From assembly GCF_027359375.1 (NCBI RefSeq), contig NZ_CP114779.1, positions 310,001 through 374,000 on the forward strand: 64,000 nt of DNA, given 5' to 3'. The DNA is from Prochlorococcus marinus str. MIT 0919 (lineage in GTDB: Bacteria > Cyanobacteriota > Cyanobacteriia > PCC-6307 > Cyanobiaceae). Below, piece after piece: positions 27,838 to 29,711 of this stretch. The notes under the pieces were generated by a model, which was not told the origin of the DNA, ran no database searches, and saw only the letters and a list, made by a program, of their open reading frames with translations. The translations under genes were made by a program, and so were the position numbers. Within the stretch, counting starts at the first letter, position 1, and every line of letters begins with the position of its first letter.

Positions 27838-28731
27838 CTAGCCAAGTTCTAAGCAAGCAAGTCCATAAATTTCATTCATTGTTATGTGAGGTTGACTCCC
27901 TTTATACATTCTCACAGTATGCGAAATCGAAGTAAAGCCTAGTGAACTCATTAATTTGTTTGCTGTTGGATTTAGCCCAGGAGTATCTATTAAAACAATA
28001 CCAGGATGCCTAACAAGAAAGGATTGTATCAATATTGAAGCTAATTCAGGGGTATCTGCGATAAGTGGTCCTATTCTCCAACCTATACCTTTCTTTAATA
28101 AACATTTTCTTATTCTGCCAAATCCCAAACAATTGCCTTCACTATTTACCAGAGCTAGAACAGTACCGGAGGTATGAAATAACCAATCTGATAAGAAATG
28201 CGGACGAGGGGTAGGTTCCTTATTTGCATCGTATTGTTGAATTACATTATCTGTAATTTCAGAGTCCTGTAATAAGACCAACCCGGAAATATCCGTAGTT
28301 AACCTTAATTGATTAATCACAGATTTGTTGTTTACAATAAATTGCCATCTAGTAGTTTTCGAAGATGATTTAAAACCCCAATAGGAATAATCAGTAATTC
28401 TGTCGGGAGCAGCTTCAAGGCCAATGCATTCTATATCAGTTAACTTATCTAGTACATGTTTCCATAGATTGATACCATAACCTCTCCCTCTATATTCCTT
28501 CTGAACAATGAATAAACCTAGGAAACCATAGGATTTATTATACTTTACTCCTACAATTGAGCCTATCAACTTATCACATAGGCAACCTACCCATAAGCCT
28601 TGACTATCTGTATTCTTGTAGATTCTTACATCTCCAATTCCAGGGGCAAAACCTTCGTTTCTAGCCCAATTAGTAATGGTTTTAATATCAGTTAACTTGA
28701 GTGTTCTAATAATAAAGTTATTATTATTCAT
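27838..28731 (-). CDS. GNAT-family N-acetyltransferase, two-domain
   Basis: In the 297 residues, the N-terminal half has the acetyl-CoA loop EYRGRGYGINLWKHVLD after the beta strand FLGLFIVQKE, a clear GNAT signature. The C-terminal half (from about residue 165) resembles the second domain of two-domain GNAT proteins, with FGRIRKCLLKKGIGWRIGPL and VLIDTPGLNPTA. The substrate is unknown. It overlaps the upstream small membrane gene by 8 bases and forms an operon of three with it and the DUF296-glutaredoxin gene. Confidence 0.88.
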   Translation of the reverse strand: MNNNNFIIRTLKLTDIKTITNWARNEGFAPGIGDVRIYKNTDSQGLWVGCLCDKLIGSIVGVKYNKSYGFLGLFIVQKEYRGRGYGINLWKHVLDKLTDIECIGLEAAPDRITDYSYWGFKSSSKTTRWQFIVNNKSVINQLRLTTDISGLVLLQDSEITDNVIQQYDANKEPTPRPHFLSDWLFHTSGTVLALVNSEGNCLGFGRIRKCLLKKGIGWRIGPLIADTPELASILIQSFLVRHPGIVLIDTPGLNPTANKLMSSLGFTSISHTVRMYKGSQPHITMNEIYGLACLELG

Positions 28732-28963
28732 TGTCTATGCTGGAACTTGAGTCCAAACTATTAGTATATATTTTGGGAACATAATACAAAAATAAAACCC
28801 ACCATATTATAATTAGTGAGGTGATTAAAATATCTACAAATAGAATTTCTATAAAAAAATAAGTGGAAATAATAATAACAAGACCTGTTAATAGTATTGA
28901 CCATGGTCTACACCAAAAAGGTTTTCCCGACCAAAAAGAAATATTGTGAGTCGGAAAAGTCAT
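28724..28963 (-). CDS. Small membrane protein, DUF6737-like
   Basis: The 79-residue protein opens with ISFWSGKPFWCRPWSILLTG, the Trp/Pro-rich start typical of cyanobacterial DUF6737, followed by two close hydrophobic spans and a short polar tail rich in Ser and Asp. No role is known to me. The start overlaps the DUF296-glutaredoxin stop by 4 bases (ATGA) and the end overlaps the GNAT gene by 8, so all three are tightly coupled. Confidence 0.82.
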   Translation of the reverse strand: MTFPTHNISFWSGKPFWCRPWSILLTGLVIIISTYFFIEILFVDILITSLIIIWWVLFLYYVPKIYTNSLDSSSSIDNE

Positions 28964-29601
28964 TTTAATGAGCTAATTTGGCCGGAATCTAAAAGTTGGC
29001 TAAGTTTCTGGTAACCACCGATATAGTTATCATCAAGAAATAATTGAGGGAAAGTTGTAGAATTACTTCTTGATTTAATAGAGTTAAATGCAATGTCATT
29101 ATCTACTTTAACTAAGTCAAAAGGTACATTATTTGAATTTAATATTCTAATTGCTCTGGAGGACCATGGACAGTTAGAAATTATCGCAAGTTGAAGACGT
29201 GTCTTACCAGTATGTTTAGAAATATGCTGTTCTTTCTTAATAGTTGATTTATCTAAAATAGACAAAAGAATATTTGCTGACTTCAGTACAATTGAACCAT
29301 TTTCTAGATGCCCACCAAATACATTACATTCCGAGTCTGAAAAGCTTAAATGCAAATGACAAGTAGAGCCAGAAAATGTTCCATTTAACGAAATTATTTC
29401 GAGATTACCTTCTGAAACGGAATTGCGATCTGTGGCTGGACATTTAAATGTTGCCTTTGATAGATTGCCAACAACTCCTCCAATGTATCCAGTCAGGTCA
29501 TGTTGGCTTGTTATAGTTATTATTTCTTCCTTAATATCATCTCCAGGCTTTAATTCTAGATCAAATGCTGATGTTGAATTTATAAGTGTAATATTTGGCA
29601 T
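28960..29601 (-). CDS. DUF296 (PPC) domain fused to glutaredoxin-like domain
   Basis: The 213 residues fall into two domains. Residues 1-115 match the PPC/DUF296 fold: GYIGGVVGNLSKATFKCP, then NLEIISLNGTFSG, HLHLSFSD (82-89) and GGHL (96-99). Residues 134-213 match glutaredoxin: strand LQLAII, active site CPWS (144-147, a single thiol with Ser in the second position), cis-Pro loop TFPQLFLDD (183-191) and YIGGY. A CxxS motif suggests a monothiol or Fe-S-handling glutaredoxin rather than a dithiol reductase. Combining the two folds in one chain is unusual. Confidence 0.85.
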   Translation of the reverse strand: MPNITLINSTSAFDLELKPGDDIKEEIITITSQHDLTGYIGGVVGNLSKATFKCPATDRNSVSEGNLEIISLNGTFSGSTCHLHLSFSDSECNVFGGHLENGSIVLKSANILLSILDKSTIKKEQHISKHTGKTRLQLAIISNCPWSSRAIRILNSNNVPFDLVKVDNDIAFNSIKSRSNSTTFPQLFLDDNYIGGYQKLSQLLDSGQISSLK

Positions 29602-29630: not shown

Positions 29631-29711
29631 TTAATTCTGTTCAAGCTTTTTGACGATGAAAACCATCGCGAACAATGATGCGAGAAGAAAAAGTAGTAAG
29701 AATACTGTCAT
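29631..29711 (-). CDS. Possible 26-residue single-span membrane peptide
   Basis: The minus-strand ATG at 29711 opens a frame that starts MTVFLLLFLLASLFAMVFIV and ends KKLEQN before TAA at 29633-29631. The shape (short uncharged head, one span, basic tail) matches the smallest photosystem and cytochrome b6f subunits, but it matches none that I know by sequence. It lies 29 bases upstream of the DUF296-glutaredoxin gene. No clear ribosome-binding site is seen, which is common in this genus. Confidence 0.4.
   Translation of the reverse strand: MTVFLLLFLLASLFAMVFIVKKLEQN

Follow-up and report, generated by a model that had tools for sequence, protein, structure and literature searches.

On the reverse strand of the window (the whole stretch of DNA analysed, 64,000 nt) lies a gene that joins an N-terminal PCC/DUF296 domain to a C-terminal glutaredoxin domain, with two further genes behind it and a small reading frame ahead of it (Table 1). 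In the Pfam search, residues 15-115 matched the PCC family at E 4.5e-19 and 69.3 bits (cut-off 25), and residues 142-194 matched the glutaredoxin family at E 5e-13 and 49.5 bits (cut-off 22.9). Scores this far above the cut-offs bear out the initial annotation, which had read the first half as a PPC/DUF296 domain and the second as a glutaredoxin with the active site CPWS.

Table 1. Features of the locus, in window coordinates; residue numbers refer to the fusion protein.
Feature	Position	Strand	Remarks
PCC/DUF296-glutaredoxin fusion gene	28960..29601	-	Single uninterrupted ORF, 213 aa
PCC domain, residues 15-115	29257..29559	-	Pfam PF03479; fold match 2p6y, Z 19.7
Glutaredoxin domain, residues 133-213 in the model	28963..29205	-	Pfam PF00462 (stretch 142-194); fold match to E. 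coli Grx3 (1fov), Z 13.6
Active site Cys144-Pro-Trp-Ser147	29161..29172	-	Cys144, Pro145 and Trp146 in 81/81 (window and best 80 of 326)
Codon of Cys54	29440..29442	-	81/81 fusions (window and best 80 of 326); 1/55 PCC domains not joined to glutaredoxin
Codon of Cys92	29326..29328	-	81/81 fusions (window and best 80 of 326); 0/55 PCC domains not joined to glutaredoxin
His82-Leu83-His84	29350..29358	-	81/81 fusions (window and best 80 of 326); 55/55 others
Codon of His98, third invariant histidine (HxH-x13-H)	29308..29310	-	81/81 fusions (window and best 80 of 326); 55/55 others
DUF6737 membrane protein gene	28724..28963	-	Pfam PF20522, E 1.3e-17; overlaps the fusion by 4 nt (28960-28963)
Tandem GNAT acetyltransferase gene	27838..28731	-	Pfam PF00583 (Acetyltransf_1) and PF18014 (Acetyltransf_18); overlaps DUF6737 by 8 nt (28724-28731)
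26-aa hydrophobic ORF	29631-29711	-	29 nt upstream of the fusion gene

A frameshift, or two separate genes read as one, was ruled out: the frame is open in relatives, and among 60 of these a full-length match was found in 25 of 37 same-family genomes and in 0 of 23 outside the family. With the full-length frame kept in relatives and both domains passing the profile search, the DUF296-glutaredoxin fusion is confirmed as real.

Glutaredoxins of class VI are said to carry an N-terminal DUF296 domain. This class, from Couturier et al. (2009), is described as restricted to cyanobacteria in the accessible part of a later source (PMC3816324). The architecture itself is already published: the accessible part of Alves et al. 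(2009; PMC2679010) lists DUF296-GRX as a bacteria-specific architecture and suggests a role in gene regulation. The window protein has that architecture in the same domain order, DUF296 before GRX in one chain. Alves et al. assign it to the CPYC class, whereas the proteins analysed here carry CPWS or CPWC, and the accessible part of their paper names neither cyanobacterial species nor the PCC cysteines.

Distribution of the fusion and its gene neighbours

Within the family, 315 of 400 genomes gave a match at E <= 1e-25, and 311 were kept after four rows had been removed by eye, three with PCC-level scores only (G025, G083, G093) and one decayed copy with three stops (G360). At class level, 126 of 291 genomes matched at E <= 1e-15; judged by match ranges, none of the matches outside the family among these 291 covered both domains. 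The 35 of 291 genomes that matched at phylum level (E <= 1e-30) all fell within the family; each of these genome searches covered a sampled part of its group. A public genome set yielded 326 stretches that code for a relative. The best 80 of these, in which close relatives are over-represented, all carry the fusion and are, with one exception, labelled Prochlorococcus, Synechococcus, Synechococcaceae or cyanobacterium. Locus L103, the one exception, is labelled Phycisphaerae bacterium; its fusion is of the picocyanobacterial kind and has the neighbour gene that is also found in a Synechococcus locus (L117), so that L103 is probably mislabelled or mis-binned. A search of viral contigs returned no relative encoded there. 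The restriction to picocyanobacteria that the initial annotation had raised as a question holds within the sampled genomes of the family, class and phylum and within the best 80 of the 326 loci.

The two genes behind the fusion are what they had been taken to be, since Pfam places one in the DUF6737 family and finds two GNAT domains in the other. The proposal of a coupled operon is supported by the short overlaps between the genes; the part of it that made the fusion the lead gene is doubtful. A conserved hydrophobic ORF just upstream may precede the fusion on the transcript; this ORF has no Pfam match, and a motif search found similar small ORFs near the fusion in 14 of the best 80 of the 326 loci. 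A scan for promoters and terminators gave counts at chance level, and the name DUF6737 was not found in the literature covered. The acetyltransferase resembles tandem GNAT proteins, both by fold and in a sequence search of the PDB, with 3ddd as the best match and no substrate indicated.

Among the best 80 of the 326 loci, DUF6737 lies directly behind the fusion in 38, and both DUF6737 and the acetyltransferase are kept in 29. Neither partner adjoins the fusion in 42; in 37 loci the next neighbour has moved up directly behind the fusion, and five fit none of these arrangements. The operon link is real in part of the clade and confined to some lineages; as the 42 loci show, the fusion is kept where the partners are missing and does not need the operon. 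The fusion is kept across most of the Prochlorococcus/Synechococcus family, and its retention even in streamlined genomes that have lost the operon partners suggests that it matters to these cells.

These counts bear on the idea of an enzyme pathway in which the fusion, DUF6737 and the tandem acetyltransferase act together. The overlapping genes of the window, the trio kept in 29 loci and the existence elsewhere of PCC domains fused to a GNAT domain or to GlmU would fit such a pathway, but the loci in which neither partner adjoins the fusion argue against it, as does the lack of acetyltransferase families among the 25 commonest Pfam families of 85 ORFs (some possibly spurious) that flank PCC genes elsewhere. 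We consider a joint pathway very unlikely. The acetyltransferase as a general partner of PCC domains was likewise set aside, being unsupported by the same tally of flanking ORFs.

The glutaredoxin half

Cys144, Pro145, Trp146, cis-Pro185 and Gly195-Gly196 are invariant in the 81 fusions formed by the window and the best 80 of the 326 loci, and in more distant fusions Trp146 is replaced by Tyr or Phe. Position 147 is Ser in 64 of the 81 and Cys in 17, so the monothiol motif initially annotated is correct for the window and is not universal. As CPWS and CPWC both occur among the fusions, the mechanism discussed below does not hinge on whether the active site has one thiol or two.

The domain belongs to neither of the two classes against which it was scored. 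With a CPWS motif it reached 39.9 bits in the Grx4/CGFS model TIGR00365 (cut-off 117.1), which places it outside the CGFS class, and 48.8 bits in the Grx3-type class I model TIGR02181 (cut-off 90), which places it outside dithiol class I. In the glutaredoxin tree, CGFS rows and class I rows form separate groups, each supported at 100/100; the fused rows lie outside both and do not resolve into a single group.

Redox sensing and Fe-S carriage had both been put forward initially as roles for this half, and they fare differently. An Fe-S carrier would hold a [2Fe-2S] cluster on a monothiol glutaredoxin and hand it to the PCC half, and the CxxS active site of the 64 fusions would suit such a role. 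The low score in the Grx4-family model, the separate branch of the CGFS rows and the 17 fusions with CPWC argue against it, and we regard it as extremely improbable; Fe-S carriage as the main reading was rejected on the Grx4/CGFS model score and the tree placement. Redox sensing is kept, now with a concrete candidate target in the same protein. The missing Lys before the active-site Cys was also considered as a sign of inactivity and was dropped, the cyanobacterial class I glutaredoxins in the alignment also having Trp there.

The genome of the window contains the GshB ATP-grasp family, and glutathione is therefore probably made in this organism. In the same genome, a glutathione synthase adjoins a free-standing glutaredoxin (L247; G000 near 1373009-1374144).

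Conserved residues of the PCC half

PCC domains occur widely in prokaryotes and plants, and outside the plant DNA-binding proteins their biochemical role is largely unsettled. The three conserved histidines of the prokaryotic PCC/DUF296 form, present in the window protein as His82, His84 and His98, are common to fused and other PCC domains alike (Table 1; the comparison behind the 55/55 count left out the fusion L224 described below) and are probably a metal site. An AlphaFold2 monomer model of the window protein (mean pLDDT 92.1, pTM 0.68) was used for fold comparison. Its PCC half shares the fold of VCA0587 (2p6y) and, with Z 17.7, that of STM3071 (2hx0/2nmu); both proteins have the HLH...GGH pattern of the fusion and, in the alignments, differ from it in lacking a glutaredoxin and both Cys54 and Cys92. 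The "metal-containing protein AF0104" (2h6l) was matched with Z 13.8. Foldseek also returned weak matches to acetolactate decarboxylases (E about 5e-4 to 9e-4), none of which is among the 50 matches listed in the Z-scored fold comparison. PTD012 (C11orf54), which is related to these decarboxylases, holds zinc by means of three His and is active as a decarboxylase on a beta-keto acid (PMC12435205); its relation to the PCC fold would be distant, and the three-His zinc site is that of PTD012.

What sets the fused PCC domains apart is a pair of cysteines, Cys54 and Cys92, invariant in all 81 fusions formed by the window and the best 80 of the 326 loci. For a direct comparison, duplicate sequences were merged, a decayed second copy (L174) was left out, and two sequences cut short before or within the glutaredoxin part (L219, L232) were counted as fusions, both here and in the PCC tree. 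The 55 PCC domains not joined to glutaredoxin were drawn from the same family as well as others, and include some fused to GlmU or GNAT (L167-L170, L173). The pair occurs in 41 of 42 fusion rows and in 0 of these 55, in which position 92 is always Gly and position 54 is Cys once. In the eight genomes that hold both kinds of PCC domain, 8/8 fused copies have the pair and 0/10 other copies do; every copy of either kind has the histidines. It is thus the fusion, and not the composition of the lineage, to which the difference is tied.

In the PCC tree, one branch (98/90) splits the 42 fusion rows from the 55 others in all 200 bootstrap trees, and the split persists without columns 54 and 92 (SH-aLRT 89). 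The fusion row without the pair is L224, an intact fusion with Gly at position 92 and a Cys three residues past position 54; it is the earliest-branching fusion of the tree, on a long branch nearest to the other rows, and it may stand for an initial stage, or the pair may have been lost from it later. With L224 left out, the fused clade also differs at P55, E100 and L112, so the cysteines belong to a wider divergence of this clade. No description of the pair was found in the literature covered, mostly open-access papers, on DUF296 with glutaredoxin, DUF296 in cyanobacteria and class VI glutaredoxins; relative to these, the cysteine pair is what is new here.

The secondary structure of the model places both cysteines in turns, Cys54 after the strand 37-53 and Cys92 between the strands 80-88 and 94-99. 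The linker at about 118-130 is modelled with low confidence and is probably flexible, so that the modelled domain arrangement is tentative. Invariant cysteines could instead be structural, as they often are, or could themselves bind a metal; the glutaredoxin would then serve other clients, and the PCC oligomer would be a scaffold only. The flexible linker of the model and the changed residues around the cysteines are compatible with such a role. Against it stands the way in which the pair tracks the fused redox domain and is missing from the other PCC copies of the same genomes, and we hold it to be unlikely.

A candidate redox switch and its output

Both domains, their conserved fusion, the cysteine pair confined to the fused form, the histidine triad and the phylogenetic linkage are established, and on these we base a reading to which we give a probability of roughly 0.45: a PCC protein equipped with a dedicated glutaredoxin, in which thiol exchange of Cys144 with Cys54/Cys92 would make PCC activity follow the glutathione redox state of the cell. 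Cys54 and Cys92 would have arisen in the lineage in which glutaredoxin was joined to PCC. Cys144 would most likely exchange glutathione or disulfides with one of them or with both, the fused glutaredoxin acting as a reductase or deglutathionylase of its own PCC domain, and the thiol state would switch the activity of a domain whose three-His site may bind metal. The fused glutaredoxin domain of the Haemophilus hybrid peroxiredoxin-glutaredoxin HI0572 (1nm3), a protein among the matches listed by Foldseek, serves its peroxiredoxin partner. As in the fusion, it stands behind its partner domain, which is there a peroxiredoxin and not PCC.

The same cysteines could serve a different output, that of a redox-controlled DNA-binding regulator whose PCC half binds promoters and whose glutaredoxin tunes the binding through them. 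The accessible part of the work on LmiA, a DUF296 protein of E. coli O157, reports promoter binding by EMSA, ChIP-qPCR and footprint (PMC7667037), and LmiA carries His 85, 87 and 101 in the same HxH-x13-H spacing as His82, His84 and His98. That part mentions no glutaredoxin; DNA binding is documented for LmiA, whereas the window fusion is known from sequence and model. The suggestion of gene regulation by Alves et al. (2009; PMC2679010) also points this way. A mild counter-argument is the acidity of the PCC half, whose net charge is -7 in the window and has a median of -5 over 41 fusions, compared with -3 over 50 PCC domains that lack an attached glutaredoxin; the flanking genes give no hint of regulation. 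We regard such a redox-controlled regulator as unlikely.

For the glutaredoxin-controlled PCC protein, we lean towards chemistry at a metal centre, or the binding of a ligand, rather than DNA binding as the output, because of the probable zinc-enzyme relatives of the fold, the acidic PCC half and the fusion of PCC to the enzymes GlmU and GNAT in other cyanobacteria; both outputs have a precedent, PTD012 for chemistry and LmiA for DNA binding. It is possible, if doubtful, that in picocyanobacteria an old metal-binding domain became a redox switch complete in itself, through the attachment of a glutaredoxin and the appearance of a cysteine pair in its partner, and that this switch couples a metal-centred activity to the glutathione pool without a separate reductase. 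If true, such a switch would be built into a protein of some of the most abundant phototrophs. The fusion and its diagnostic cysteine pair lead to named residues and a named chemistry, which makes PCC function testable by a few point variants.

Some further forms of the genes were seen in passing. Two decayed copies of the fusion carry internal stop codons (L174, L234), and the genome of the first (G080) also holds an intact copy. In a different cyanobacterial family, a single frame encodes GlmU-like nucleotidyltransferase and hexapeptide domains followed by PCC (L167 1561-3483 and L169 2941-4791, also L168 and L170), an architecture confirmed by Pfam for L167 and L169. A GNAT acetyltransferase and PCC share one continuous frame in L173 (2410-3402) and also in L202.
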